From: Paraglaciecola marina
Lineage (GTDB): Bacteria; Pseudomonadota; Gammaproteobacteria; Enterobacterales; Alteromonadaceae
Direction: 5' to 3'
DNA length: 64,000 bases
NCBI RefSeq assembly: GCF_004360155.1
Contig: NZ_ML178720.1
Location: forward strand, 29,078-93,077
The translations under genes were made by a program, and so were the position numbers. Positions 10,083 through 23,035 of this stretch are shown here, in pieces. Under the pieces are notes generated by a model. It was not told the origin of the DNA, made no database searches, and saw nothing but the letters and a program-made list of their open reading frames with translations. The stretch's first letter is position 1. Each line of letters begins with the position of its first letter.

Positions 10083-11318
10083 TTAGCGCCCAGATAACTG
10101 GGTGTGAATAGCGTTTTTGTATGCTTCTAAGCCAGGTATTAAGGCCGTAATAACTGTGGCAGCAGTAATAACAGCAGACAACTTGAGTAAGTCCATAGAG
10201 AATACATTGTTACTTAAAAATAAGCCGTACTCTGCAGTTAACCAACTGTCTAGTAAGGTGAGTAATAAGGTCACAAACCCTATTGAAAACACCAATGCCA
10301 ATAAGCTGATGATGAGCGCCTCTAAAATAATTAGCGAAACAATTAGTTTAGGTGATGCCCCGAGAATACGAAACACAGCAATTTCTCTTTGCCTTTCGTT
10401 CATGGTGGCTAACAACATAGTGGCTAAGCCAAATAGCGATGCCAATAAAACTAAATAACCAATAACCTGCAATAGGTTTTCAACATTCGCCATCAATTGC
10501 CACAGCTGAGCCATCGCCACCCCGGGCAGCACGGCCATCAACCTATCTTTTTTGTAATTATTGATTTGCCTCTGTAGTGTAAACGTGGCGAACTTGTTGT
10601 TTAACCCCAACATCATAGCGGTAATGCTTTTAGGTGATGCTAGCTGCGTATCAGGGTTATCTACCAATTTTTTTAATTGGCTAGGGGGTAAATGAATAGC
10701 ATCGATAGCTGCCAAACTCACATGCACGGTTTTATCTACTGGTGTGCCCGTTGCGGCCAAAATACCACTTACAGTAAATGGCGCTTGGTCATGATTCACA
10801 AAGCTAGTACTACCAATGCCGTGGGCTATTACTATTTTATCACCTTGCTTGTATCCTAACTCTTTGGCTACGTCGGCACCTAGTACAGTTTCGAATGGAC
10901 TGGCGAATTCTTTACCCGCGGCCATAGTGAGGGGCTTATCACTACCGTATTTAAAATATTTAAAATAATCAGTATTGGTACCCATCACGCGAAAACCACG
11001 ATGGGAGTCACCCAAAGAGACTGGAATAGCCCAAGCCACAGATTTATTGGCCTTTAACATAGTAAAACTATTGTAATCGATATTATTAGTAGGGCTCCCC
11101 ATTCTAAATACCGAGTACAAAAGTAAGTTTAATTCACCACTAGGTGCACCTACTATTAAATCCACACCGGATATGGTTCGGTTGAAACTTTCTTTTGCTT
11201 GCAAGCGTATATGCTCAACGCTTATCAAGACACTAATACTCACCACTAAAGATAAGAACGTTAGAAATACAGTCTTTCTTCGGCTAACTAAACTGCTCCA
11301 CGCGATTGAAGTAAGCAT
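10083..11318 (-). CDS. ABC transporter permease, MacB/FtsX-like, of the zinc-starvation island
   Basis: This 411-residue membrane protein has one N-terminal membrane segment (about residues 15-35), a long periplasmic domain of the MacB core type, and three C-terminal segments (VIGYLVLLASLFGLATML..., LIILEALIISLLALVFSIG, and a third near residue 375), with the ERQREIAVFRILGAS coupling helix typical of FtsX-type permeases. Its start overlaps the stop of the ATPase gene by one base (TAATG), so the two are translationally coupled and form one transporter. The setting, a Zur-like box shared with DUF3299 genes and close to zrgA, matches the ABC part of the Zrg zinc-uptake locus described in Vibrio cholerae. 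Function as zinc importer, or as a lipoprotein or periplasmic-chaperone mover, is inferred. Confidence 0.85.
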   Translation of the reverse strand: MLTSIAWSSLVSRRKTVFLTFLSLVVSISVLISVEHIRLQAKESFNRTISGVDLIVGAPSGELNLLLYSVFRMGSPTNNIDYNSFTMLKANKSVAWAIPVSLGDSHRGFRVMGTNTDYFKYFKYGSDKPLTMAAGKEFASPFETVLGADVAKELGYKQGDKIVIAHGIGSTSFVNHDQAPFTVSGILAATGTPVDKTVHVSLAAIDAIHLPPSQLKKLVDNPDTQLASPKSITAMMLGLNNKFATFTLQRQINNYKKDRLMAVLPGVAMAQLWQLMANVENLLQVIGYLVLLASLFGLATMLLATMNERQREIAVFRILGASPKLIVSLIILEALIISLLALVFSIGFVTLLLTLLDSWLTAEYGLFLSNNVFSMDLLKLSAVITAATVITALIPGLEAYKNAIHTQLSGR

Positions 11319-12055
11319 TAACCAACCACCTCATCACTGATGCCATTGCAAAATGATGTAATTGGCGTACGTAACGAAAAAAATGGCTCTAGACCAGTAT
11401 CATGACTCACAAAAATCATGGTGGTGTTGTGAGCCTGACACATTTCTAATAGCAAGGTCATAAATCCATGTTTAGCAGAGTTATCAAGTGCTGAGGTTGG
11501 CTCATCAATTAAGAGTAATTTAGGCGCATTAATAAAGGCTCGCATAATCGCCACCCTTTGCTGTTGCCCCACACTTAAACTTGAAACCGGCGTATGTAAA
11601 ATACTACTAGGTAACTTCAGTGCAGCCATCAGCTGTTGTAAAGATTCAACTAATTGCTGTTTTGAGGATTTAGCCAAGTACACAGCCAACTCAATGTTTT
11701 TTGCAACACTTAAGTAAGGGATCAAATTAAACTGCTGAAACACCACGCCTATATTTTCAGCTCGAAAGCGGTCTCGCCCACTGTTAGACAAGTCGCTCAT
11801 TTCAGTTCCAAATAGCTTAATGCTACCCAGCTGAGGGGCCAAAATTCCTGACAGTAAATTAAGCAAGGTTGATTTGCCCGAGCCTGAGTCGCCATACAGA
11901 AATACCTGTTGGCCTATCTCAACTTTCCACTGGCTAAAGTGTAATGATTTGCTATTTGCCTGTTGCTTACCATAAGTATGCACCACATTTTGCAACTCAA
12001 TGGCTGCAACTTGGTTAATTATTTTATCGTTTGAGATATTTTCTTTTAAGGTCAT
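11318..12055 (-). CDS. ABC transporter ATPase partner of the MacB-like permease
   Basis: All ABC ATPase motifs are intact: Walker A GDSGSGKST (near residue 56), Q-loop in VVFQQFNLIPYLS, signature LSVGQQQR, Walker B LLLIDEPTSALD and the H-loop FVSHD. Sequence style is that of LolD/MacB ATPases. It is the first gene of the leftward operon and starts 30 bp from a Zur-like palindrome at 12086-12100, implying induction in zinc shortage. It drives the permease whose gene overlaps its stop codon. The transported substrate is inferred from context, not from the ATPase. Confidence 0.9.
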   Translation of the reverse strand: MTLKENISNDKIINQVAAIELQNVVHTYGKQQANSKSLHFSQWKVEIGQQVFLYGDSGSGKSTLLNLLSGILAPQLGSIKLFGTEMSDLSNSGRDRFRAENIGVVFQQFNLIPYLSVAKNIELAVYLAKSSKQQLVESLQQLMAALKLPSSILHTPVSSLSVGQQQRVAIMRAFINAPKLLLIDEPTSALDNSAKHGFMTLLLEMCQAHNTTMIFVSHDTGLEPFFSLRTPITSFCNGISDEVVG

Positions 12056-12085
12056 AAATAAGATGGAGCTAGCGCTTATTATTAT

Positions 12086-12100
12086 TGATATGATATAACA
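12086..12100. promoter_or_regulatory. Zur-box-like palindrome (divergent promoter of ABC and DUF3299 operons)
   Basis: TGATATGATATAACA differs at two positions from the gammaproteobacterial Zur core TGTTATAwTATAACA. It lies between the divergent ABC ATPase (start 12055) and DUF3299 gene (start 12138), where one repressor dimer pair could close both promoters when zinc is sufficient. Confidence 0.7.
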
Positions 12101-12137
12101 TTATTCATAGTATTACTGGTCACCCTGACAATCAATC

Positions 12138-12722
12138 ATGAACACTAAAAAAATATGTCATTTGCAGTACCTTAGTATTGTTCTTATAGCAACACTTTGG
12201 TTCGCCAATGTAAATGTCAAAGCAGCTGAAACACAAAATTATCAAGAGGTTGAATGGATTCAGTTGATGCCACAAGATGATTTAGAAGCCTTACTCAATC
12301 CGCCAGACTATCTAGCTGATATTCAAGATGGCAGTGAGCAGGACTCGGTTGATGCTTTCTCTGGTATAACAAGTGAAGATGCAACAACCCAGCGCTTTCA
12401 ACAGGCATTAACCTCCGTTAGAGTTATGACAGAATTTGATAACAAGCCCGTTAGAATTCCTGGGTTTGTCGTCCCCTTAAAGTCTGATGAGCAACAGCGA
12501 GTCACAGAGTTTTTTATTGTGCCCTACTTTGGCGCCTGCTTGCATATGCCACCTCCACCGCCTAATCAAATGATATACGGTAAGGTAGAAACCGGCTTTG
12601 AATTAGCCCAGCTGACTGAACCTTTTTGGTTTGAAGGTGTGCTGCAGATAGAAACCATAAGCAATACCACAGGTACATCTGCTTATGGTATGTCCTTGGA
12701 CAATATTAAAGCTTACGAATAG
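12138..12722 (+). CDS. Secreted DUF3299 protein (first copy)
   Basis: This 194-residue protein has an N-terminal signal or anchor segment (YLSIVLIATLWFANVNVKA). The C-terminal DUF3299 domain carries the hallmark VPYFGACLHMPPPPPNQMIY (about residues 133-152), with one conserved Cys and His, then TGTSAYGMSL. DUF3299 proteins occur in the Zur-regulated zrg zinc-uptake locus of Vibrio cholerae and in lipoprotein-like ABC clusters. They may bind zinc or pass it to the ABC partner, but this is not shown. It is the first gene of a three-gene operon from the promoter at 12086-12100. Confidence 0.85.
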   Translation: MNTKKICHLQYLSIVLIATLWFANVNVKAAETQNYQEVEWIQLMPQDDLEALLNPPDYLADIQDGSEQDSVDAFSGITSEDATTQRFQQALTSVRVMTEFDNKPVRIPGFVVPLKSDEQQRVTEFFIVPYFGACLHMPPPPPNQMIYGKVETGFELAQLTEPFWFEGVLQIETISNTTGTSAYGMSLDNIKAYE

Positions 12723-12733
12723 AGAGTCGTTCA

Positions 12734-13180
12734 ATGAAACTTAAACTGGTTAACTTACTATTATTGATACCTAGCACTTTGCAGGCTTTTGCTTGTGAAT
12801 TTCACGGCGGTGGTTTTGGAATGGGCTCTTTTGGGCAATTTCATCCTCTTGCACAACAGCATATGAATAACTCTGCCCCAGTCGAGTTAAAAGTAACTCA
12901 CGATAACCGAGTAAAAGTAACCGCAGCCACAGATGCTAAACTACAGTTACGTTACGTGGTACCTGACGACTATACCAATGCCGAAGTCATTCTAACCCCG
13001 AGCAAAAATTTGATACTGGCTGATTCATCACCTCTTAGTTTATCTAAAGATAAAGGCTTGATAGATGTCACCTTCCAAGCCACGGGGCCAGGTGAACACT
13101 TTATTATGGTTAGAATAGACGCCACACAAAGCTACAGACCCTATTCAAAAATTCAACGAGTGAGTGTAACCGCTATCTAG
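12734..13180 (+). CDS. Small secreted protein between two DUF3299 genes, function unknown
   Basis: This 148-residue protein has a clear signal peptide (KLVNLLLLIPSTLQAFA). The mature N-terminus is rich in Gly, His and Phe (CEFHGGGFGMGSFGQFHP) and begins with a Cys. The rest reads as a small beta-sandwich (alternating strands such as VELKVTHDNRVKVTA, KGLIDVTFQATGPGEHFIMVRI), like the YtfJ or cupredoxin-like periplasmic domains, but I do not recognise a family. The gene starts 11 bp after the first DUF3299 stop and is followed 20 bp later by the second, so all three should be made together under zinc shortage. A periplasmic metal-binding or chaperone role is plausible from context only. Confidence 0.7.
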   Translation: MKLKLVNLLLLIPSTLQAFACEFHGGGFGMGSFGQFHPLAQQHMNNSAPVELKVTHDNRVKVTAATDAKLQLRYVVPDDYTNAEVILTPSKNLILADSSPLSLSKDKGLIDVTFQATGPGEHFIMVRIDATQSYRPYSKIQRVSVTAI

Positions 13181-13200
13181 TTAGGCTGTATTTTCCTACA

Positions 13201-13881
13201 ATGGGGTCACAACTAAAAAGTAAACTTAAAATCATCTTAACCTTTGTACTATGCATTGGCTTAGGTGTGTGGATTGGGCGTTTAGCCTTAGACAATTGGG
13301 CAAGCATCAAACAAGCTGTATTCCATAAAAAAACTCTGTATGCAACGTCAGATCCTGCGCTGCAATCTTTAGCCAACCAAGCTCAGCCCTTTGTCTTAAA
13401 ATGGGCTTCACTGTTACCTAGAGAAGAGTATGAAGTGATTGCTCGCTATCAAACTACACAGCCTCAAAACTTAGAAGAAATGACAGCACAAGTGATGCGC
13501 TCTATCAACGCGTCTACAGACCAGAATTATCAAGATGCCTTAATCTCTACCAAAACCATGACTGAGTTTGAAAATAAAATGGTGAGTATTTCCGGGTTTA
13601 TTGTTCCCATCGATTTTTATGATGATAAAAGCGTGAAAAGCTTCTTTCTTGTACCTTACTTTGGGGCTTGCATCCACTTACCCGCTCCACCGCCAAATCA
13701 AATGATATACGTTGAACTAGAGAAAAGTTTTAAAGATGTGGACATCACTAATACCTATACCTTAATGGGCAAACTCAACATAGAATTGTTTGAAGATTTA
13801 ATGGGGACCTCAGCCTACACTCTAGACTTGGTTTCTATTATGCCTTTTTACGGCCAACCTGATGATTTTCGGACACACTAA
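13201..13881 (+). CDS. Membrane-anchored DUF3299 protein (second copy)
   Basis: This 226-residue protein has one N-terminal membrane anchor (IILTFVLCIGLGVWIGRLAL, about residues 12-31), a linker of about 110 residues, and a DUF3299 domain with VPYFGACIHLPAPPPNQMIY and LMGTSAYTLDL. Compared with the first copy it has a longer spacer, so the domain is held further from the membrane. The pair of DUF3299 proteins in one operon matches the zrg-type locus. It converges on the DUF1826 gene with 27 bp between stops. Confidence 0.85.
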   Translation: MGSQLKSKLKIILTFVLCIGLGVWIGRLALDNWASIKQAVFHKKTLYATSDPALQSLANQAQPFVLKWASLLPREEYEVIARYQTTQPQNLEEMTAQVMRSINASTDQNYQDALISTKTMTEFENKMVSISGFIVPIDFYDDKSVKSFFLVPYFGACIHLPAPPPNQMIYVELEKSFKDVDITNTYTLMGKLNIELFEDLMGTSAYTLDLVSIMPFYGQPDDFRTH

Positions 13882-13908
13882 CCATTGTTCCAAAGAAACA
13901 TTTAAGTC

Positions 13909-14583
13909 CTAAGACAAAAAATCTAAGGTAAGTAATAAACGTTTATCACCTTCACGATATGGTGGCGATCTATGCACTACAGCAGTCTCTTCATTACCTA
14001 TCCAAGCAGACCCCTTAAGTAAGGCGACGTCTCCAGTAGTCATACTTTTTATATTTGCATCCGATATATACAGCCCAGACTCGCTATCATCTAAGCCTTT
14101 ACTACCGTGACCTAACTTACTTCTATCAATATGATTGCCGCTTAACCACTGTGTACCTTGCCCGAAAAACGTAGTTACTAAACGGCAAGGTACGCGGTCT
14201 ATATGAAATCGTGGGCACATGGGAGAGTCAAGTAAACGAATGCGGAAGCCCACTTGGTCTAAATCAAACAAAGTGCAAAACATATCTATAACTTCACTGG
14301 CGTTACTAATAAAAGCATTGCCTAAAGTAGTGTATTTTAATTCATCACGGAGATCGTCTTCAATATGCTGCATTCTGATAAAAGCCGAACGCTCCAAATG
14401 TGATGCTGTATTAATAAAGCGTGTGACATCCGCCTTAATCTCATTGGATAAATCACGTTGCCAAATGGCTAAATTAACCGACTCATCATAAATGCCAGTA
14501 AGAATACTTGGTTCATCAAAACAGCTGGAACGTCTAATGACACTATTAGTTGTTTGGTCTTTTAAAACAGCTTGCGACGGCAT
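13909..14583 (-). CDS. DUF1826 protein with an Fe(II)/2-oxoglutarate oxygenase-like triad
   Basis: This 224-residue cytosolic protein matches the DUF1826 pattern (RFHIDRVPCRLVTTFFGQGTQW). His127-x-Asp129, a distal His204 (VVHRSPP) and Arg215 before a closing strand (RLLLTLDF) have the order and spacing of the metal triad and 2-oxoglutarate-binding Arg of double-stranded beta-helix oxygenases, so an Fe(II)-dependent oxygenase is a reasonable proposal. DUF1826 genes recur beside COG0523 GTPases in zinc-limitation clusters. Here it is the last gene of the zrgA-merC-DUF1826 operon. The substrate is unknown. The start with MPSQ is plausible; a Ser/Arg-rich N-terminus precedes the domain. Confidence 0.75.
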   Translation of the reverse strand: MPSQAVLKDQTTNSVIRRSSCFDEPSILTGIYDESVNLAIWQRDLSNEIKADVTRFINTASHLERSAFIRMQHIEDDLRDELKYTTLGNAFISNASEVIDMFCTLFDLDQVGFRIRLLDSPMCPRFHIDRVPCRLVTTFFGQGTQWLSGNHIDRSKLGHGSKGLDDSESGLYISDANIKSMTTGDVALLKGSAWIGNEETAVVHRSPPYREGDKRLLLTLDFLS

Positions 14584-14610
14584 ACTCCACTCCGATTTGA
14601 TTTTAAAATG

Positions 14611-15033
14611 TTAACTGGTACTTCTAGCAGCAACTGGATGACACTGACTTAACTGTCTGCGGGCTTTAAAATTTATGATATGGCCGTAAGCCACCAAGAT
14701 AGAACCTATTACTGAAGCAAATACCTCACCCTGCTCACCAAAGACATCGTGCCCAAAAATAGCCACAGTCACTAAAACTCCCATGCCCATTGATGTAATC
14801 AATACCACTAACCAGCTGCGATGATGGAAATACCCTAGAACCACGGCAAAAGCACTAATCGGCAGTACCGCATACAGTAACCAAGTATGAAAGCGCTCAT
14901 CGCTAAAGAAGGTCAAGGTCGTTAAAGTAGGCAATAGAATTAAAATAAGCGGCAACACTAAACAGTGGATCATACAAAGTGTTGATAGAAATATAGCTGA
15001 ACGATCAGCAAGGTTCATAAGCCTCTTAAACAT
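14611..15033 (-). CDS. MerC-family small membrane protein
   Basis: This 140-residue protein has about four hydrophobic segments and the MerC signature C20-x-x-H23-C24 (LCMIHCLVLP) at the end of the first helix, followed by LPLILILLPTL. MerC proteins move Hg(II) in mer operons, but there are no other mer genes here. Its place 84 bp after zrgA and before DUF1826 argues for zinc transport or sensing in the inner membrane instead. This is a context inference. The tail (QLSQCHPVA) has one further Cys-His. Confidence 0.82.
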   Translation of the reverse strand: MFKRLMNLADRSAIFLSTLCMIHCLVLPLILILLPTLTTLTFFSDERFHTWLLYAVLPISAFAVVLGYFHHRSWLVVLITSMGMGVLVTVAIFGHDVFGEQGEVFASVIGSILVAYGHIINFKARRQLSQCHPVAARSTS

Positions 15034-15117
15034 AATAACCCTTTGCTAATAACGCCTTTAAAAAAGCTAAGTTAGACTGCAGTTTTTGTTTAGGCATATT
15101 TAAGCCAATACTCACCA

Positions 15118-15759
15118 TTAATTAAATTCCATATTTGTAACACTGTTTGTAAGAGTCGCCGACCCTTGCCCAGACGCTATACTCCATTGCACCTCAAGTG
15201 TTTGTAGACTATGCATCTTGTCGAATATGGCGAAAGACAAGCCTTTTATTTGGTTTGTACATTGCAGTGTATAAGACACTTCAATATTCTGATGATGAAC
15301 TTTGTGCTCTTCATCATGGCCATCGTGATCCTCATGGTGCCCGTCATGTTCGTCATGCTCGTCATGCTCGTCATGCTCGTCATGCTCGTCATGCTCGTCA
15401 TGATGATGCTCTTTTTCCTCTTCATGATGGTCGCCATGTTTGTGTTCTGCGCTTTCTTGACCTTCAAATACATCTAAATTATGAGAATAATCGAGCTGTT
15501 TACATTTGCCATCTAGTTGCACAAGGTTCTCTATCTTTTCCAAGGTATGACCAAGATTTGCAAGACTATCTCTTTGTTTTTTATCTTCAGGAGCATGCTC
15601 AAAACCCAATGCATCTGCGGCCGACAGCACATATTGCATTTGCCAATGAGCACCATCTTGAATGACAAAAACAGTGCCAGCACCATGCACATGCTCTTGC
15701 GCTTTAGCTATTCCGCCAAAACAAAGACTTAAGCATATTAATTGTTTTGTAAATTTCAT
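15118..15759 (-). CDS. zrgA: ZrgA-type periplasmic zinc-binding protein (DUF2796)
   Basis: The ATG at 15759 is chosen because a GGAGAG ribosome-binding site precedes it; it gives 213 residues. There is a signal peptide ending AKAQ, then the DUF2796 start HVHGAGTVFVIQDGAHW. A central block of about 50 residues (about 106-156) is made of His, Asp and Glu, including six or seven copies of the tripeptide HDE, and is followed by a beta-rich C-terminal part. In Vibrio cholerae the DUF2796 protein ZrgA is the periplasmic zinc-binding component of the Zur-controlled ZrgABCDE uptake system. It heads the leftward operon with merC and DUF1826 and shares a 149-bp divergent promoter region, with two Zur-like boxes, with the TonB receptor. 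Confidence 0.88.
   Translation of the reverse strand: MKFTKQLICLSLCFGGIAKAQEHVHGAGTVFVIQDGAHWQMQYVLSAADALGFEHAPEDKKQRDSLANLGHTLEKIENLVQLDGKCKQLDYSHNLDVFEGQESAEHKHGDHHEEEKEHHHDEHDEHDEHDEHDEHDEHDGHHEDHDGHDEEHKVHHQNIEVSYTLQCTNQIKGLSFAIFDKMHSLQTLEVQWSIASGQGSATLTNSVTNMEFN
15342..15404 (-). repeat. Seven-copy 9-bp tandem repeat coding for His-Asp-Glu in zrgA
   Basis: Seven near-identical 9-bp units (cgtcatgct on the + strand) lie in a row inside zrgA. As the unit is a multiple of three, gain or loss of copies changes the length of the zinc-binding stretch without breaking the frame. Confidence 0.9.
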
Positions 15760-15847
15760 TTTTCTCTCCACCTAATTCAATACTATTCACCTACAGACAT
15801 TACCAAACCTAAGTTCACGATAGCTAGAAAATGATTGAAAGCCGATT

Positions 15848-15862
15848 TGTTACAATATAACA
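15848..15862. promoter_or_regulatory. Zur-box-like palindrome 1 (zrgA / TonB receptor)
   Basis: TGTTACAATATAACA matches the Zur core TGTTATAwTATAACA with a single difference. It lies in the divergent region between zrgA (start 15759) and the TonB receptor (start 15908). Confidence 0.82.
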
Positions 15863-15875
15863 TAACCATTAGCAT

Positions 15876-15890
15876 TGTTACAATATAACA
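15876..15890. promoter_or_regulatory. Zur-box-like palindrome 2 (zrgA / TonB receptor)
   Basis: This is an exact copy of box 1 (TGTTACAATATAACA), 28 bp further on, and it ends 17 bp before the receptor ATG. The centre-to-centre distance of 28 bp would place two repressor sites on nearly the same face of the helix, suited to cooperative binding. Confidence 0.82.
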
Positions 15891-15907
15891 TAATAAAAAG
15901 GAATAGA

Positions 15908-18340
15908 ATGTATAACTTATCTCGCATTGCAGCGCTCATGGGGCTGCTTTTACCCACAAGTGTTTTAGCTGCACAATCTTTAGAAGGGCTAGTTGAAAAC
16001 AGTAGCGGTAAAGCTGTATCTGGCGCATTAGTTCGTGTTGAAGGTACTAACCTAAATGCAGTAACGGGAAAAGATGGCCGCTTTGTCATTGATGATTTAA
16101 GTATCGGAAATAACGAGTTCCACATATCGGTTTCAGGTTATGCACACTTGCATAAAGATATAGTTTTTTCTGAAGATGAATCAAAAACCTTAACACTTAC
16201 TCTAACTCGCTCACCAATAGAAGTCATTGATGTAGTAGCTACACCTATTCATATGTCTGTCATGGAATCTGCTGCGCCCGTTAGTGTGCTTGCCGGTGAG
16301 GCATTACGTCGTCAACAGGCAGCCACATTAGGAGATAGCTTAGAAAAACTCCCTGGTGTGCAAAGTAACTTTCATGGCAATGTTGCCAGTACACCTATTA
16401 TTCGAGGTTTAAGTGGACCTAGAGTATTAATCGCGCAAAATGGATTAGACGTAAGCGATGTATCTAGAGTGGGGCCAGATCACTCAGTTGCTGCTGAAGC
16501 ATCAACTTCGCAACAAATCGAAGTATTAAGGGGCCCTGCCACCTTATTTTATGGAAGTGGCGCGATTGGCGGCGTAGTAAATGTAGCCGATGGCCGCGTA
16601 CCTACAGATAGCACTACCCGTGGCGAATGGTTACTTGAAAACAGCTCAGTAAACGACCAAAAACTAGCTTCTTTTAATGCTACCACTGGGACAGAATCAT
16701 TTGGGTTTTATGCCGATGGTTATTGGCGTAAATCAAACGACTATGAAGTCCCAGTAGACCCTGATTCAGATCACGATGAAGATGACGAAGATCATGAAGA
16801 ACACGACTTTGTAGTAGAAAACAGTGCCGAAGAATCAAACGGTATAACACTCGGCGCTAGTTATCTTTTTGATAAAGGTTTTTTTGGGGTAGCTGTAGAG
16901 CAGTTTAATCGTGAATACGGCATTCCTGGTCACACCCATGGCGATGAAGAAGAGCACGATCATGATGAAGAGGAGGAAGAAGAAAGCGTCTTTGCAGACC
17001 TAGAGCAAACTCGAGTGCAATTACTTGGTGAGTTTAATGCCGATGGCGAGTGGATCAAAAAGATCAATTTTCGCGGGGGCTTTACTGACTACGAACATGC
17101 TGAAGTTGAAAATAGCGAAGTTGGAACTCTGTTTGAAAACCAAACCTCCGAAATAAAACTAGATTTCATTCATAGCACCTTTGCAGACTGGAATGGCGGT
17201 ATAAGCTTCCATTTTAAAAACAGCGATGTCGCTGCCCAGGGCGAGGAAGCCTTTACGCCACCATCTAAAGCACAAACCTTTGCACTAGCCATAATGGAAG
17301 AAAAGCATATTGGTGAAGTTTTAGTGCAGTTTGGTGGTCGTATAGAGCAAGTAACTTTGGAAGCGGACAACGTATTACTTCCTACGCTAGAAACCCACCA
17401 TGAAGACGAGGAAGAAGATGACCACGACCATGATCACGACGACGAAACCAGCATCACCCGAGTATTCGCAGTAGATCATGAGTTTACCCCAGTCAGCTTG
17501 TCAGTTGGGTTAGTCTGGGACTTTACCGAAGGGTACAACTTTGGCCTTTCTGTATCACGCTCACAACGTGCTCCATCAGCTGCTGAGCTTTTATCTTTTG
17601 GACCGCATATTGGTACCGGTAATTATGAGGTGGGCGCTTTGTTTGCCTTATATGAAACGGAACACGAAGCTTATATTGGTTTGTCTGATGAAGAAATTGA
17701 TCTAGAAACAGCAAACAACATTGACCTAACCTTCCGAAAAACTGAAGGGGACATAGCTTTTGTATTTAATGCCTTCTATAACCAAGTAGATAACTACTAC
17801 TATCAGACGTCTACTGGGCTATCAGCTGAAAGTGGTCATGACCATGATCACGGTGATGAAGAAACCGAAGAAGAAAGTAGCGAAGAACTACTGCCTGTTT
17901 ATATTTTCGAAACCGATGATGTAATTTTACATGGTTTTGAAGTGCAAGTAGCGTGGCAAGTTACCAATGCATTTAAGGCGACCTTCTTCTCTGATTACGT
18001 GCGTGCCCGACTCAAAGATGGCGGTAACTTACCTCGTACCCCTCCCCTTCGATTAGGAACTCAGTTCAGCTATGAAAATGAAAGTATTAGTGCTCATTTA
18101 GATATTACTCGTTATGACACTCAAGACCGGATTACATCTGATGAAACCGTTACTGACGGTTACACCTTAGTTGATGCTAGCGTGTCCTATGACATTCCTG
18201 TTTTTAATCAAGATATCGCTCTTTACCTCAAAGGCAGCAACCTAACCAACACCGAAGCCCGAGTGCATAGCTCGTTTATTAAAGATGTTGCCCCACGTCC
18301 GGGACGAAACATAGCAGTGGGCGTTAGAGGCTACTTCTAA
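15908..18340 (+). CDS. ZnuD-like TonB-dependent outer-membrane zinc receptor
   Basis: The ATG at 15908 follows AAGGAA. An in-frame ATG at 15875 would overlap Zur box 2 and is rejected. The 810 residues comprise a signal peptide (ending VLAA), a carboxypeptidase-regulatory-like domain (about 20-105), a plug (about 115-230, with VEVLRGPATLFYGSGAIGG-like motif) and a beta-barrel ending in Phe. Four His/Asp/Glu-rich inserts (about residues 284-302, 341-359, 497-514 and 643-655) are likely extracellular loops that gather metal, as in the Neisseria zinc receptor ZnuD. It is the first gene of the five-gene rightward operon, tightly linked to two Zur boxes. Zinc as substrate is strongly suggested; a zincophore-metal complex is possible. 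Confidence 0.9.
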   Translation: MYNLSRIAALMGLLLPTSVLAAQSLEGLVENSSGKAVSGALVRVEGTNLNAVTGKDGRFVIDDLSIGNNEFHISVSGYAHLHKDIVFSEDESKTLTLTLTRSPIEVIDVVATPIHMSVMESAAPVSVLAGEALRRQQAATLGDSLEKLPGVQSNFHGNVASTPIIRGLSGPRVLIAQNGLDVSDVSRVGPDHSVAAEASTSQQIEVLRGPATLFYGSGAIGGVVNVADGRVPTDSTTRGEWLLENSSVNDQKLASFNATTGTESFGFYADGYWRKSNDYEVPVDPDSDHDEDDEDHEEHDFVVENSAEESNGITLGASYLFDKGFFGVAVEQFNREYGIPGHTHGDEEEHDHDEEEEEESVFADLEQTRVQLLGEFNADGEWIKKINFRGGFTDYEHAEVENSEVGTLFENQTSEIKLDFIHSTFADWNGGISFHFKNSDVAAQGEEAFTPPSKAQTFALAIMEEKHIGEVLVQFGGRIEQVTLEADNVLLPTLETHHEDEEEDDHDHDHDDETSITRVFAVDHEFTPVSLSVGLVWDFTEGYNFGLSVSRSQRAPSAAELLSFGPHIGTGNYEVGALFALYETEHEAYIGLSDEEIDLETANNIDLTFRKTEGDIAFVFNAFYNQVDNYYYQTSTGLSAESGHDHDHGDEETEEESSEELLPVYIFETDDVILHGFEVQVAWQVTNAFKATFFSDYVRARLKDGGNLPRTPPLRLGTQFSYENESISAHLDITRYDTQDRITSDETVTDGYTLVDASVSYDIPVFNQDIALYLKGSNLTNTEARVHSSFIKDVAPRPGRNIAVGVRGYF

Positions 18341-18377
18341 CCCCCGATATAACTTTTAAATACTTAAGGAAGATATA

Positions 18378-19757
18378 ATGAGCAAATTACCAAAATTAAA
18401 CATACTGGCAATGGCCATCGCTAGTTTAATGCTATATGGCTGTGGTGACGCAACAACAAACATCATCGAAAAAGAGTCTATCGTTGAGGAAGAAGACGAG
18501 CATGATCATGACGAAGATGATGATGAATATACCATAGAGTCAATGGGGCGACTTGCCGTGTTGTCAGCTGAAAGCAACGAAGCCACTATCTTTGATTTAG
18601 ACGACAATGAATTGTTGGATACGTTTACGTTAATTCACGATACAAACACACTTACCGCCTCTGCTGACTATCGATTTGCAGTGGTCACCAGTCGAAGTAA
18701 TGACTATGTGGGCTTTATTGATGGAGGAATGTGGCGAGAAGATCATGTGGAGCATTTACATGACTATGAGCAGACTCCGGCTATGAGTGACTTTGAACTC
18801 GAAGGAAGTCGTCCAACACATGTCATTAAATATGACGGTCAAACTGCTGTATTTTTTGATGGTGACGCAGAAACAAGTTTAGCCGCATCAGTACAAGTTG
18901 TATCAGATACAGACATCAGCAGTAACACCACTGAAGTTGCCACCCTAGAATACGCTGTAAACATGCATGGTGTGGCAGAGCCAAATAGTGACCATTTACT
19001 ATCAACCATTCATCGTGACGATGCAGAAACCACTTCAGCGACCACTATATTACCGGACCAAGTTGGTGTTTATCACCTTCATGATGGTGAATATGAGCAA
19101 GAACAAGTTTTAGAAGCTACCTGTCCTGACTTACATGGTGCCGCCCAAAATGAAGAATATACCGTTTTCGGTTGTAGTGATGGTGTATTAGTGGCTTATC
19201 AAGAGAGTGATGAAGAGTATCATGCAGAAAAAATACCTAACATTGATGCATTAAACGACGTGCGCATTGGCAGTATTTACTCCCATGAAGAAAATGACTC
19301 ATTCATTGGCGTTGCCTCTGCTTACGGAGTAGAGGGAGTTATTTTAGTCAACATAACCCCCGAAAGTGGCATGGAAGTTTTAGAGTGGCAACCTGAAACT
19401 GATGCGGCTCCCATCTCTTATGGATTTGCTTATGAAGGCGAACATTTTCTTATTTTAGATGAGCTAGGGTTTCTCAATGTACTTAGTGGTCATGACCACG
19501 ATGGCGAAATTGAGTGGGAATTAGAGACCAGTATAGATATCTCTGATGAAGATCTTTCTAACATGCCAGAGGGCATGTCATTTAGTTTTGCTGCGGCTCA
19601 AAATGGTCACTATGTATACGTATCTGATCCGATTGCACAGCATATATTGCAAATTGACCTTGAAAGCATGACTATTACTGATGATATAGAAGTAGACTTC
19701 TCACCCGCTTCTCTAACTTGGTTAGGAATTGCAGAAGAGGAGCATGACCACGACTAG
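18378..19757 (+). CDS. AztD-like zinc metallochaperone, lipoprotein form
   Basis: This 459-residue lipoprotein (lipobox LYGC, Cys22) carries an acidic His stretch right after the anchor (DEHDHDEDDDE) and another at the C-terminus (EEEHDHD). The body reads as a beta-propeller (repeats such as RLAVLSAESNEATIFDL, YRFAVVTSRSNDYVGFIDG). It contains the DHVEHLHDYE and GSRPTHVI segments that recall AztD, the periplasmic zinc chaperone of alphaproteobacteria that loads the substrate-binding protein AztC. No aztABC genes are present. Here the partner is more likely the outer-membrane receptor encoded 37 bp upstream, or ZrgA. Lipid anchoring would hold it close to the barrel exit. The AztD match is by remembered motif pattern and should be tested. 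Confidence 0.7.
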   Translation: MSKLPKLNILAMAIASLMLYGCGDATTNIIEKESIVEEEDEHDHDEDDDEYTIESMGRLAVLSAESNEATIFDLDDNELLDTFTLIHDTNTLTASADYRFAVVTSRSNDYVGFIDGGMWREDHVEHLHDYEQTPAMSDFELEGSRPTHVIKYDGQTAVFFDGDAETSLAASVQVVSDTDISSNTTEVATLEYAVNMHGVAEPNSDHLLSTIHRDDAETTSATTILPDQVGVYHLHDGEYEQEQVLEATCPDLHGAAQNEEYTVFGCSDGVLVAYQESDEEYHAEKIPNIDALNDVRIGSIYSHEENDSFIGVASAYGVEGVILVNITPESGMEVLEWQPETDAAPISYGFAYEGEHFLILDELGFLNVLSGHDHDGEIEWELETSIDISDEDLSNMPEGMSFSFAAAQNGHYVYVSDPIAQHILQIDLESMTITDDIEVDFSPASLTWLGIAEEEHDHD

Positions 19758-19767
19758 ATCTGGATGG

Positions 19768-19798
19768 GTTATGGACAAAATAAACCTTTGTTCATAAC
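19768..19798 (+). terminator. Intercistronic hairpin between aztD-like and phosphatase genes
   Basis: GTTATGGACAAA and TTTGTTCATAAC pair over 12 bp (one G-U) around a 7-nt loop. There is no U-run after it, so it is more likely an mRNA processing or stability element, or a weak attenuator, than a full terminator. Confidence 0.45.
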
Positions 19799-19832
19799 TC
19801 CCTCAGTATAGTTTTCAATTAGGTAATAAATA

Positions 19833-20645
19833 ATGAACAAAGTAGTACAACTAATAACACTGTGTTTCTGTGCAAGCATATTCGTAGGATGCACGGCTAA
19901 TCTAGTGGCAGAAGAGAGTAAAGAGAGCTGGGTAGAATATGAAAACAGCGCGAGCTTGACAGCACTGCCCCTTTCTAACTCGGTAAAATGGCACACTAAA
20001 AGTAAAGAATATCAACTTATTACCCAAGGTGTATATCAGCAAGCAGAACAACAATTACCAGTGGTTGCTTTACAAAATGAACCTTGGGTAGTGGTGATGG
20101 ATGTTGATGAAACGGTATTAGATAACAGCCAATATCAGGTGATGGTAGACCAAACAGATGGCCATTATACCTCTGAGAGTTGGGCTAGCTGGATAGTAGC
20201 CAAAAAAGCGACTCTTGTACCTGGTGCTGCAGAGTTTATGAAAAAGGTTTATTCATTGGGTGGAAAAGTCGCGCTGGTCACAAACCGAGAAAAAAGTCTT
20301 GATGCATATACCTGGGAAAATATTTCGGCATTAATCCCTGCAACCTTCGAAAACACTTGTTTACTGGGACGCACTCAAGCAGACAAAGACGCCATAAATG
20401 AAACAAGCATAATTAATGACAAAGACCTCCGTCGCCAGCAAATTACTAACGGTGAGGTTGTTTGTTTCTCTGAGCAAGGCGAACAAACAAGTTGGCAATC
20501 TGGACATACTATTGTCATGCAAATTGGCGACAATATCGAAGACGTCAATGGCATCACCCAAGAGAACGCCAATATAGAGGCTTTAGAGACGCGACTTTAT
20601 AAAGATATATTTATCTTACCCAATGCTATGTATGGGTCTTGGTAA
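19833..20645 (+). CDS. Class C acid phosphatase / lipoprotein e(P4)-type 5'-nucleotidase (HAD)
   Basis: This 270-residue lipoprotein (lipobox FVGC, Cys20) has the HAD nucleophile motif WVVVMDVDETVLDN (Asp90, Asp92), the spacer WASWIVAKKATLVPGA, the threonine motif VALVTNRE and the acidic motif QIGDNIEDVNG. This order is that of class C acid phosphatases such as Haemophilus e(P4), which use Mg2+ and release nucleosides or phosphate from nucleotides and NAD fragments at the outer membrane. It sits in the Zur-linked operon, 75 bp after the AztD-like gene and 22 bp before phoX. The family needs no zinc, which may be why it is here. Confidence 0.88.
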   Translation: MNKVVQLITLCFCASIFVGCTANLVAEESKESWVEYENSASLTALPLSNSVKWHTKSKEYQLITQGVYQQAEQQLPVVALQNEPWVVVMDVDETVLDNSQYQVMVDQTDGHYTSESWASWIVAKKATLVPGAAEFMKKVYSLGGKVALVTNREKSLDAYTWENISALIPATFENTCLLGRTQADKDAINETSIINDKDLRRQQITNGEVVCFSEQGEQTSWQSGHTIVMQIGDNIEDVNGITQENANIEALETRLYKDIFILPNAMYGSW

Positions 20646-20667
20646 ATTCAACTAAGGAATAAAATAC

Positions 20668-22035
20668 ATGTTTACCCGTAGGCAGTTTAATCAAGGTTTA
20701 GTGGCAGCGGCCCTAAGCGGTTTAGCCACTCATTTGAATGCATCAGCTGTTTTTAAAGACTCTGCTATCCCTGCAGGTAAAAATCCATTGCTGCCAGATG
20801 CCAATGAAATATTAGATTTACCTGCAGGTTTTAGCTACCAAGTGATCTCTAAGCTAGACGACAAAATGAACGATGGCCTTAAGGTTCCTGACCGAGCTGA
20901 TGGCATGGGTTGTATTCCCCTTGATGATAAACGCGTAGTTTTAGTGAGAAACCACGAAATACCTCTGTCTAAAACACCTCAAGCGTTACAAGACTCTATG
21001 CAACCTAGCCGTGTATTAAAAGCCTACGACACCTATAACTCAGGGCTGCCTCTAGCAGGGGGAACAAGTAGTATTGTTTACAACTTAGAAACCCGTCAGG
21101 TTGAGCACCAGTGCATGTCTATACTGGGCACAATTCGAAACTGCTCTGGCGGCGTCACCCCTTGGGGGAGCTGGCTAACCTGCGAAGAATCCGTTGCTAC
21201 CGCCTCGGATAGAATAGCGAAAGACCATGGCTATGTATTTGAAGTACCAGCCAAAGCCAGAGAGTTGGTCGAGCCCGTACCTATCAAGGAAATGGGCCGT
21301 TTTAACCACGAAGCAGCCTGCGTTGATCCCAAAACTGGAATTGTGTACTTAACCGAAGACAGACAAGATAGTTTGTTTTATCGCTACGTTCCCAATAAAC
21401 CCAACGACTTGCTAGCAGGCGGAAAGTTGCAAGCCTTAATGGTTTCGGGACAGCCCAAATTTGATACCCGAAACACCCAAGCCCCTTACATGGAAGAAAG
21501 CATAGATTATGCTTGTGAGTGGATTGATTTAGACAATGTGGATAGCCCAGAAGATGATTTACGTCACAGGGGCTATAACAAAGGTGCTGCATTGTTTGCC
21601 CGTGGTGAAGGCATACATTTTGGCGATAATGACATGTACTTTTGCTGTACCAGTGGTGGTAAAAAGGCATTAGGGCAGATTATGCGATATGTCCCTACTC
21701 CTTTGAGAGATGACCAAGAAAGCATTACTCAAACAGGCACATTAAGCCTATTTGTAGAAAGCCATAACAAAGCCACCTTTAATTTTGGTGACAACATAGC
21801 TGTAGCGCCAAATGGCCATTTAATGGTATGTGAAGATCAATACTCAGCCATAGTGGATAACCACCTTAGAGGGGTAACGCCAGAAGGCGAGGTTTATGAT
21901 TTTGCAAAGGTACGTTGGCAAACTGAACCCGCTGGCGCATGCTATTCACCAGACGGTGAAACACTGTTTGTGAATTTGTATTCTCCTACTCTTACCTTGG
22001 CTATTACAGGACCTTGGCAAAACCTGTATGGATAA
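20668..22035 (+). CDS. phoX: PhoX-family (DUF839) alkaline phosphatase, Tat-exported
   Basis: This 455-residue protein starts with a Tat signal (TRRQFNQGLVAAALSGLA) and has the PhoX propeller features: NCSGGVTPWGSWLTCEE (with the conserved Cys and Glu), GRFNHEAACVDPKTGIVYLTED and APNGHLMVCEDQ. PhoX enzymes use Ca2+ and Fe3+ instead of the zinc of PhoA, and release phosphate from phosphoesters in the periplasm. The family also includes members of unknown activity, so the enzyme assignment is likely rather than certain. The gene overlaps the COG0523 gene by 8 bp and belongs to the zinc-island operon rather than to a visible Pho cluster. Confidence 0.85.
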   Translation: MFTRRQFNQGLVAAALSGLATHLNASAVFKDSAIPAGKNPLLPDANEILDLPAGFSYQVISKLDDKMNDGLKVPDRADGMGCIPLDDKRVVLVRNHEIPLSKTPQALQDSMQPSRVLKAYDTYNSGLPLAGGTSSIVYNLETRQVEHQCMSILGTIRNCSGGVTPWGSWLTCEESVATASDRIAKDHGYVFEVPAKARELVEPVPIKEMGRFNHEAACVDPKTGIVYLTEDRQDSLFYRYVPNKPNDLLAGGKLQALMVSGQPKFDTRNTQAPYMEESIDYACEWIDLDNVDSPEDDLRHRGYNKGAALFARGEGIHFGDNDMYFCCTSGGKKALGQIMRYVPTPLRDDQESITQTGTLSLFVESHNKATFNFGDNIAVAPNGHLMVCEDQYSAIVDNHLRGVTPEGEVYDFAKVRWQTEPAGACYSPDGETLFVNLYSPTLTLAITGPWQNLYG

Positions 22036-23035
22036 AATTGCACAAGTCCCCACCAATATTATTACTGGTGCACTTGGGGTAGGTAAAACCACACTTATCC
22101 AAGCATTGTTAAAGGCCAAACCCAGTGATGAACGCTGGGCTGTGCTTGTAAACGAATTTGGCGAAATTGGCGTAGACGGAGCATTATTATCCTCACCTGA
22201 AGACAAAGGTGTATTTATTCGGGAGGTACCAGGGGGCTGTATGTGCTGTACCTCTGGGTTGCCCATGCAAATTGCCTTAAACATGCTACTCGCGAGAGCC
22301 AAACCACATCGATTACTAATTGAGCCAACTGGACTTGGACATCCCAAGGAGGTGCTGCAAACGTTAACCGCAGAGCATTATCAAGGTGTGTTAGATGTTG
22401 GCACAACACTTACTCTTATCGACCCGAGAAAATTGGCAAGCCAGCGCTGGCGCGAACATCAAACTTTTCAAGAACAGTTACAAGTAGCAGATCATATCGT
22501 TGCGACTAAATCTGATTTGTATGAGCAAGACTTGCTCCCAGAGCTAAAAGCTTACTTAAACAAACTAGAGATTACTGACACGCCTATTAGTTTGGCAGAG
22601 CAAGGTGAAATTGATATAAACATATTGTTTGGGCAGTCTAAATATCAACAGACAGTAAACGAAAATAGCCATTCTCATTCACATTCTGCGATTGAACACA
22701 GCCACAATATTAAAGCTCCCGCTGTTGGATCCATAAAAGTTGCCAATAATGGTGAAGGCCATTATTCCTTTGGTTGGATATGCTCACCGACACTAATATT
22801 CAATTATAAGCTTGTGATGGATACATTATTCACTGTAGCTGTTGATCGTTTAAAAGCGGTAATCATTACCGAGCAAGGAGTACTTGCCTGCAACATCAGC
22901 GATGAGTGCGTATCTATAAATATAGTAGCTCATGAAGCAGCTGATTCGAGAATTGAGTTTATCACTGAAAATGAACAACTTGCTCTGCAAACGTCTGAAA
23001 AAATTGAAACAGTTTTTGGCTTAGCCTCTGAGTAG
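22028..23035 (+). CDS. COG0523/CobW-family zinc metallochaperone GTPase
   Basis: The 335 residues carry Walker A GALGVGKT (14-21), the metal motif C71-M-C73-C74 in PGGCMCCTSG, EPTGLGHP, and the guanine-specificity motif TKSD near residue 160. A His-rich linker (HSHSHSAIEHSHN, about 215-228) precedes the C-terminal CobW domain. COG0523 proteins of the ZigA/ZagA type hand zinc to essential enzymes during zinc starvation, using GTP. The start codon lies inside the end of phoX (8-bp overlap), which couples translation. It is the last gene of the operon. The client protein is unknown; no zinc-independent paralogue (folE2, dksA2) is seen nearby. Confidence 0.92.
   Translation: MDKIAQVPTNIITGALGVGKTTLIQALLKAKPSDERWAVLVNEFGEIGVDGALLSSPEDKGVFIREVPGGCMCCTSGLPMQIALNMLLARAKPHRLLIEPTGLGHPKEVLQTLTAEHYQGVLDVGTTLTLIDPRKLASQRWREHQTFQEQLQVADHIVATKSDLYEQDLLPELKAYLNKLEITDTPISLAEQGEIDINILFGQSKYQQTVNENSHSHSHSAIEHSHNIKAPAVGSIKVANNGEGHYSFGWICSPTLIFNYKLVMDTLFTVAVDRLKAVIITEQGVLACNISDECVSINIVAHEAADSRIEFITENEQLALQTSEKIETVFGLASE

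Follow-up and report, generated by a model that had tools for sequence, protein, structure and literature searches.

ZrgA and DUF3299 proteins have been reported from Zur regulons or from clusters linked to Zur (PMC9817125), DUF1826 and COG0523 genes in Zur-linked clusters of pseudomonads (PMC2770081, PMC9431628), and TonB receptors in the Zur regulon of Caulobacter, which also contains, beside the TonB receptor gene znuK, the Zur-repressed ABC-2 type genes znuGHI, described in the passages concerned as a putative uptake system (PMC4176598). MerC of mercury operons is stated in passages of two reviews to move mercury inward (PMC12193353, PMC12191737), and a title in the reference list of a further paper has a bacterial MerC raising cadmium accumulation in Arabidopsis (PMC6416403). 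Here we describe a thirteen-gene cluster of Paraglaciecola marina (Alteromonadaceae) that includes a gene for a MerC-like membrane protein and lies at positions 10083-23035 of the window, i.e. the whole stretch of 64,000 nucleotides from contig NZ_ML178720.1 that was analysed. Alteromonads are common marine heterotrophs. We read the locus as a Zur-repressed zinc-starvation cluster of recurring modules in which the MerC-like protein would be the point of zinc entry at the inner membrane, and give this reading a probability of about 0.5. That the cluster is a Zur-linked zinc cluster is very highly probable and its role in zinc starvation is well supported, while zinc import by the MerC-like family, as judged from sequence, appears to us an even bet. 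The thirteen genes listed in the first-pass annotation are all present, their open reading frames (ORFs) opening where it placed them, and the family names are upheld by Pfam and NCBIfam.

Zur boxes, missing importers and the MerC-like family

By orientation the genes form four transcription units, for which there are three Zur boxes: the ABC ATPase and permease genes (reverse strand), DUF3299-secreted protein-DUF3299 (forward), ZrgA-MerC-DUF1826 (reverse), and TonB receptor-AztD-like protein-acid phosphatase-PhoX-COG0523 (forward). Two copies of TGTTACAATATAACA at 15848-15862 and 15876-15890, near-perfect with 0-1 mismatch, form a tandem pair between divergent genes, and the third box, TGATATGATATAACA at 12086-12100 with 2 mismatches, also lies between divergent genes, namely at the junction of the ABC and DUF3299 genes; these are the Zur-like palindromes that had been claimed at two divergent promoters. 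At up to 3 mismatches the window holds 19 matches where 23.7 are expected by chance, and the genome-wide count at up to 2 mismatches is 26+29, lower than for the reversed control (68+67), so that weak boxes of 2-3 mismatches were rejected as evidence on their own. At up to 1 mismatch six sites remain in the genome, spread over four loci. This cluster accounts for two of the sites; the other loci are an ABC-2 transporter operon (two sites, contig C16), a second ZnuD-like TonB receptor gene (C11) and a second merC (C25). The box at 12086 is credible because it repeats at the same junction at four loci of relatives (L058, L063, L114, L145); L065, L112 and L113 have the junction but no box at it. 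At five other sites with 2 mismatches elsewhere in the genome (L018-L022), inspection by eye gave no sign of a link to zinc in the adjoining ORFs. Three Fur-family proteins are encoded in the genome, the most divergent of which (150 amino acids (aa), C3) is presumed to be Zur and is predicted to bind the boxes of the cluster.

Searches for ZnuA, ZIP and ABC-3 returned 0 matches to ZnuA and 0 to ZIP in the P. marina genome, and a true ABC-3 permease is absent from it, the sole match being a FecCD protein (299 versus 25 bits). ABC-3 matches of 20-30 bits in frames of ~325-430 aa were taken as FecCD-like, an assignment tested with Pfam for the P. marina genome only. In our sample of 147 genomes of the family, ZnuA exceeds its cut-off in 17 (18 have any match), leaving 130 with no such match, and ZIP gives any match in 53 and one over the cut-off in 41. 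Neither an over-cut-off ZnuA nor any ZIP match is found in 80 genomes. Pfam MerC is present in 140 of the 147 and in 75 of these 80, the latter figure being an upper bound (see below).

The P. marina genome carries two MerC-like genes, both Zur-linked. The window copy (14611-15033, reverse strand; 102.9 bits on PF03203, gathering score 27.6), which encodes a helical membrane protein and candidate inner-membrane zinc permease, belongs to a Zur-boxed unit, and the second stands alone with a 1-mismatch box (C25:7674; L017). We counted as direct a box with up to 2 mismatches and no more than 350 bp upstream, and used the reversed pattern as control. Among 60 merC loci from 52 family genomes (the highest-scoring Pfam matches, P. 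marina left out), 38 have a direct box upstream of the assumed start, against 0 of 60 for the control. The same holds, upstream of the Pfam match, for 14 of 20 further loci from 20 genomes (19 next-best matches and G299, chosen because it has ZnuA; control 0 of 20), which brings the sum to 52 of 80 loci in 72 family genomes (control 0 of 80). In a clade of 31 sequences (support 0.977) that holds the second, stand-alone merC, all 30 fetched members have a direct box; the other 30 loci comprise eight with a direct box, 17 whose box lies at another place in the stretch, in many cases ahead of the ZrgA or DUF1826 gene of merC's own unit, and five (L112, L113, L129, L132, L137) with none in the stretch. 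Over the 376,264 bases of the 60 loci, 71 boxes compare with 2 control matches. At 13 of the 60, a COG0523 gene is no more than 3 kb from merC. At 39 merC loci of the order outside the family there are 26 boxes versus 3 control matches, and 18 of the loci have a box of any kind.

The CxxHC MerC-like proteins are a group apart from the MerC of mercury operons. Helix 1 of the window protein carries CMIHC (C20, H23, C24), not CxxCFP, and is accompanied by E103, H118 and N121. CxxHC is found at 57 of the 60 family loci, the other three having lost it through the start chosen, and at all 20 further loci, and CxxCFP at 0 of 60. Outside the family, the 39 loci divide into 29 with CxxHC, nine with CxxCFP and one with Gln for His (L198). 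The nine, on which CxxCFP as a mark of the mercury type rests, form one clade (support 1.0) and none of them has a direct box, eight being boxless in the stretch and L208 having a box ~600 bp off. Conservation across 92 non-mercury sequences is nearly complete (C20 in 89, with 3 gaps; H23 in 89; C24 in 90; E103 in 91; H118 in 91; N121 in 86), whereas the nine mercury-type proteins have S at position 103 in seven cases and T or R otherwise, S at position 118 in all nine, and D at position 121 in eight. A Cys-His-Glu-His set would suit zinc better than a pure thiol pair. Neither the window MerC nor its paralogue matches any NCBIfam family at E 0.001, the mercury MerC models included, and when plasmids were searched with both proteins, neither the 7 records at E 0.001 nor the 8 at E 10 bore an annotation as mercury MerC. 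At the control locus L201, by comparison, MerC reaches 221 bits against the NCBIfam mercury model, whose cut-off is 170, and is followed by a mercuric reductase (942 bits), with MerR-, MerT- and MerP-like ORFs upstream by eye. The chromosomal mer loci L201 and L205, which both encode mercury-type MerC and a mercuric reductase, serve as a natural control.

We propose import by the MerC-like protein because ZnuA, ZIP and a true ABC-3 permease are missing and merC is repeatedly Zur-boxed; of the Zur-linked candidates for the inner membrane met in this analysis, the family is the most consistent one in a lineage mostly without ZnuA. The first-pass annotation had correctly listed a MerC-like protein, but had missed both this scarcity of ZnuA and the fact that merC is a main Zur-boxed gene in the lineage. 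In the mechanism that we envisage, Zur would leave its three boxes when zinc is absent and the four units would be made. Zinc would be drawn in across the outer membrane by the TonB receptor and kept in the periplasm by the AztD-like lipoprotein and ZrgA, the MerC-like protein would pass it across the inner membrane in place of the missing ZnuABC, and the COG0523 GTPase would deliver it inside. Zinc as the substrate of MerC, the direction of transport and every hand-over are predictions. A fuller version, in which CxxHC MerC-like proteins would be Zur-repressed zinc importers of the inner membrane that, in a large part of the Alteromonadaceae, have replaced ZnuABC and ZIP, fed by AztD and ZrgA without an ABC binding protein and with zinc-free phosphatases in the same regulon, we put a little short of even odds.

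For the entry of zinc into the cytoplasm in the 130 of the 147 family genomes that have no over-cut-off ZnuA, one testable candidate family can now be named together with its likely ligands and likely regulation. A large set of chromosomal genes, these results also suggest, is misnamed by the label "mercury resistance protein". Among the matches listed in a search of the open-licence literature, with subscription papers and preprints mostly outside it, none connected MerC with Zur or with the uptake of zinc, which is not proof of novelty; passages of papers that might bear on such a connection treat MerC and Zur separately.

The other modules and their recurrence in relatives

The leftmost unit encodes a ZrgB/PA4065-like permease (10083-11318, reverse strand; Pfam FtsX 56 bits, MacB_PCD 43 bits), whose closest solved sequences are LolE, LolF and YtrF (best E 8e-4), and its MacB/LolD/DevA-like ATPase partner (11318-12055, reverse strand; ABC_tran 114 bits), for which DevA, FtsE and LolD are the best NCBIfam models, none reaching its cut-off. 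We did not give this pair the import role because it is MacB/LolE-like, a class that has been reread as an exporter in Pseudomonas aeruginosa, where the relevant passages reinterpret PA4064-PA4065 as MacB-type exporter and not importer (PMC11481552). The pair is therefore a poor candidate for inner-membrane zinc import, the import step probably lies elsewhere, and together with DUF3299 it probably forms an exporter or mechanotransmission module. This sets the Zrg ABC pair apart from the import step.

On the forward strand follow the first, ZrgE/PA4066-like DUF3299 gene (12138-12722; PF11736 146 bits, PDB 4hsp E 1e-25), a gene for a small secreted protein of 148 aa (12734-13180) and the second DUF3299 gene (13201-13881; PF11736 130 bits). 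The 148-aa protein has no family in Pfam or NCBIfam; a distant homologue (37 bits) likewise lies between DUF3299 genes in L063. The merC unit further contains, on the reverse strand, the genes for a DUF1826 protein (13909-14583; PF08856 193 bits) and for the His-rich zinc-binding protein ZrgA (15118-15771, likely start ATG 15759; PF10986 122.5 bits), whose PDB match is the solved zinc-binding protein 8ezw (E 4e-6). The likeness to the Zrg locus of Vibrio cholerae noted earlier extends to the presence of ZrgA, ATPase, permease and DUF3299 in one neighbourhood, but these do not form the single operon of Zrg and PA4063-66, being arranged as divergent units with boxes in between.

The TonB receptor (15908-18340, forward strand) has plug and barrel, His-rich loops and a carboxypeptidase-regulatory N-domain, and is ZnuD-like only, scoring 330.7 bits on the ZnuD model NF038289, under the cut-off of 950. 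Its start is probably ATG 15908; TTG 15875 is disfavoured because the second Zur box would then fall inside the gene. Another TonB receptor of the ZnuD-like kind, encoded at C11:111903 (L016) and preceded by a 1-mismatch Zur box, reaches 402 bits on the ZnuD model, short of the cut-off.

The next gene (18378-19757, forward strand) encodes an AztD-like zinc-binding beta-propeller lipoprotein that probably works like AztD. AztD chains are its best solved relatives by PDB sequence search (E 1e-14), and its predicted model (predicted local distance difference test score (pLDDT) 74, predicted template modelling score (pTM) 0.75) matches 6cmk with E 1e-22 and TMt 0.80; the top nine structural matches are chains of 6cmk, 6n01 and 6ck1 (E 1e-22 to 3e-18, TMt 0.79-0.82). 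On the NCBIfam AztD model NF038015 it reaches 112.6 bits, under the 400-bit cut-off. According to passages describing the structure, zinc site 1 of AztD consists of three His (H124/H167/H218 in Paracoccus) and site 2 of H99, H102 and D104 (PMC6689063). In an alignment with Citrobacter AztD, from which the step to Paracoccus numbering was made by pattern, site 1 corresponds to H148, H197 and H253 and site 2 to H123 and H126, its Asp being changed to H128; the Cys pair is C249/C266, and all these residues are invariant in 11 sequences. The family of AztC, the known acceptor of AztD, i.e. ZnuA, has 0 matches in the P. marina genome.

Two phosphatase genes follow on the forward strand. The first (19833-20645) encodes a class C acid phosphatase lipoprotein, e(P4)-like (PF03767 116 bits; 3pct E 2e-17), which falls under the cut-off of the e(P4) model TIGR01533 (116.1 versus 216 bits) and belongs to the wider Acid_phosphat_B family. 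The second (20668-22035) encodes a PhoX-family phosphatase (PF05787 267.6 bits, gathering score 24; PDB 4amf/3zwu PhoX E 2e-10), and, in a comparison of the Ca/Fe active site that covered the stretch NCxxGxTPWGxxLTCEE, this stretch aligns with solved PhoX. Neither phosphatase family is known to require zinc (window 19833-22035), and the two enzymes may be zinc-sparing members of the Zur unit. The last gene (22028-23035, forward strand) encodes a COG0523 GTPase (cobW 147 bits) with a GCMCC motif, taken from the translation, and a His-rich insert.

Neighbourhoods were counted at 89 loci (12 AztD-like relatives, 17 further AztD stretches and 60 merC stretches), which include strains entered twice, e.g. 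L041/L061, L042/L064 and L059/L132; the 29 AztD-anchored stretches each reach about 10 kb either side. Of the 13 families, 11 are shared by L063 (an Alteromonadaceae metagenome-assembled genome), nine by L058 (Paraglaciecola algarum), nine by L069 (Aliiglaciecola lipolytica) and eight by L065 (Teredinibacter), so the grouping is not unique to this genome, a point on which the first-pass annotation had wanted a neighbourhood search; the exact 13-gene set was not met again in the 29 AztD-anchored stretches. The AztD-like protein stands in one stretch with ZrgA at 5 and with MerC at 12 of the 89 loci. PhoX recurs at 7 (6 strains), which is why we suggest zinc sparing, and the acid phosphatase at 1 (L157, after merC). 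L187 also has a 31-bit acid phosphatase match.

In a sample of 295 genomes of the order, the AztD-like protein occurs in 18 and ZrgA in 86 (82 over cut-off). Nine genomes, P. marina among them, have both, and in the other eight the genes lie on different draft contigs in seven cases and are separated by 1.6 Mb or more of a single chromosome in one (G001). The cluster is thus made up of modules that are sometimes joined and sometimes separate in relatives. What had been called one integrated zinc-scavenging pathway is borne out in its Zur linkage and zinc-starvation role, but one fixed pathway is unsupported because AztD-like protein and ZrgA are separated in those eight genomes.

Weighing the alternatives

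Several observations weigh against zinc entry through the MerC-like protein. The figure of 75 in 80 genomes is an upper bound, the MerC type having been read in 72 family genomes and the rest being called by Pfam alone, and Pfam MerC also matches mercury MerC, in one case with 90 bits. Five genomes (G244, G343, G296, G309 and G381, the last 80% complete) have no match to MerC, even by a profile of our own, nor to ZnuA or ZIP, and therefore another zinc route must exist there. G244, G343, G296 and G309 are near-complete genomes, and the AztD neighbourhood of G244 contains no obvious permease by eye. Order-wide, and in favour of such entry, strong ABC-3 matches (E up to 1e-30) are found in 13 of 64 genomes with and 168 of 231 without MerC (Fisher p 4e-14), or in 23 of 64 and 192 of 231 when weak matches are counted too (p 1e-12), but this contrast is confounded by ancestry and both p values are inflated; the strong cut-off, moreover, misses divergent ABC-3, G292 having ZnuA yet a match of 1e-13. 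Within the family the exclusion of ZnuA and MerC is not significant, as 15 of 17 ZnuA genomes have Pfam MerC (Fisher p 0.19), and the six ZnuA genomes among the 72 read (G356, G393, G316, G292, G375, G299) all have zinc-type MerC, with a direct box in three of the six, so that MerC can accompany ZnuABC. Outside the family 15 of 39 loci have a direct box, and 13 of the 29 CxxHC-type loci there have no box in the stretch. COG0523, ZrgA or DUF1826 genes still stand beside boxless merC at ten loci (L179, L180, L181, L188, L194, L196, L197, L199, L209, L211). Finally, the MerC model is helical but modest (pLDDT 76, pTM 0.66), and a structural search with it found no solved relative at E 0.001.

A different importer is conceivable in the same genome. 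At C16:32482 and 32509 a tandem pair of Zur boxes lies immediately ahead of the genes for an ABC ATPase and two DUF3526/ABC-2 permeases (C16:32482-38200; L015, L178), after which a TonB-receptor-like ORF is seen by eye, and this Zur-boxed operon would by description resemble znuGHI-znuK; both permeases have homologues in the zinc cluster of L063 (553 and 485 bits). MerC would then be secondary, serving low-affinity entry or sensing. ABC-2 permeases are mostly exporters, which counts against such a role. The Caulobacter source itself grades znuGHI as a putative uptake system (PMC4176598), and the likeness to it is one of description only, so we regard this explanation as possible though somewhat unlikely. 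It may also be that the MerC-like protein is no permease at all and acts as membrane zinc chaperone, sensor, or exporter against rebound toxicity. It is small, its transport role is a prediction, and the COG0523 genes found close to merC, at 13 of the 60 loci no more than 3 kb away, are what a delivery partner might look like; yet the Zur repression indicated by its boxes fits import better than export, and its mercury relatives are named transporters, with MerC moving mercury inward in the review passages (PMC12193353, PMC12191737). We consider this unlikely.

Zinc might instead be imported by the Zrg-type ABC pair, ZrgA serving it as binding protein, which was the original proposal in Vibrio. 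The box at the ABC/DUF3299 junction in the window and in L058, L063, L114 and L145 would agree with this, as would the strong induction of the operon by zinc limitation in V. parahaemolyticus and, according to a heading of the same paper, the poor growth of a zrgA deletion without zinc (PMC9817125). The permease, however, is FtsX/MacB/LolE-like, PA4064-PA4065 has been argued in the passages cited to be a MacB-type exporter (PMC11481552), and among the 24 family genomes within the order sample ZrgA occurs in 9 versus MerC in 23, which leaves import by this pair decidedly doubtful. A grouping of unrelated genes by chance, to which the absence of the same 13-gene set from the 29 AztD-anchored stretches might point, is very improbable, since L063, L058, L069 and L065 each have 8-11 of the 13 families in one place, with boxes among them; it is already ruled out for the core of the cluster and conceivable only for the acid phosphatase (1 of 89 loci).

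Comparison with described systems

The MerC-like protein shares with MerC of mercury operons the Pfam MerC family and Cys in helix 1, but has CxxHC, E103, H118 and N121 in place of CxxCFP and mostly S, S and D, and its gene stands beside zinc genes and Zur boxes and not in a mer operon. With the Zur regulon of Caulobacter (znuK, znuGHI, zrpW-zrpX) the locus has in common TonB receptors, a COG0523 gene and a non-Znu candidate at the inner membrane; a term search of the text finds MerC unmentioned there, and ZrpW is described in it with six membrane domains (PMC4176598).

The AztD-like protein resembles AztD of AztABCD (Paracoccus, Citrobacter) in its beta-propeller fold, the three His of site 1, two His of site 2 and the Cys pair; it differs in being, by sequence, a lipoprotein, in the change of the site 2 Asp to His and in scoring below the NCBIfam cut-off. 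Unlike in AztABCD, no ZnuA/AztC-family match and no true ABC-3 permease accompany it in the P. marina genome. Zur-linked clusters of pseudomonads share DUF1826 and COG0523 with the window; in P. aeruginosa dksA2 and amiA stand alongside, and MerC and AztD are absent from the table rows of the source that were compared.

To the Zrg locus of Vibrio (zrgABCDE) and to PA4063-PA4066 of P. aeruginosa the locus is similar in ZrgA, ABC ATPase, permease, DUF3299 and Zur linkage. It differs from them in having two DUF3299 genes and the gene for the 148-aa secreted protein, in the placement of the ABC and ZrgA units under different boxes, and in being joined to the TonB receptor/AztD/COG0523 unit and to merC and DUF1826.

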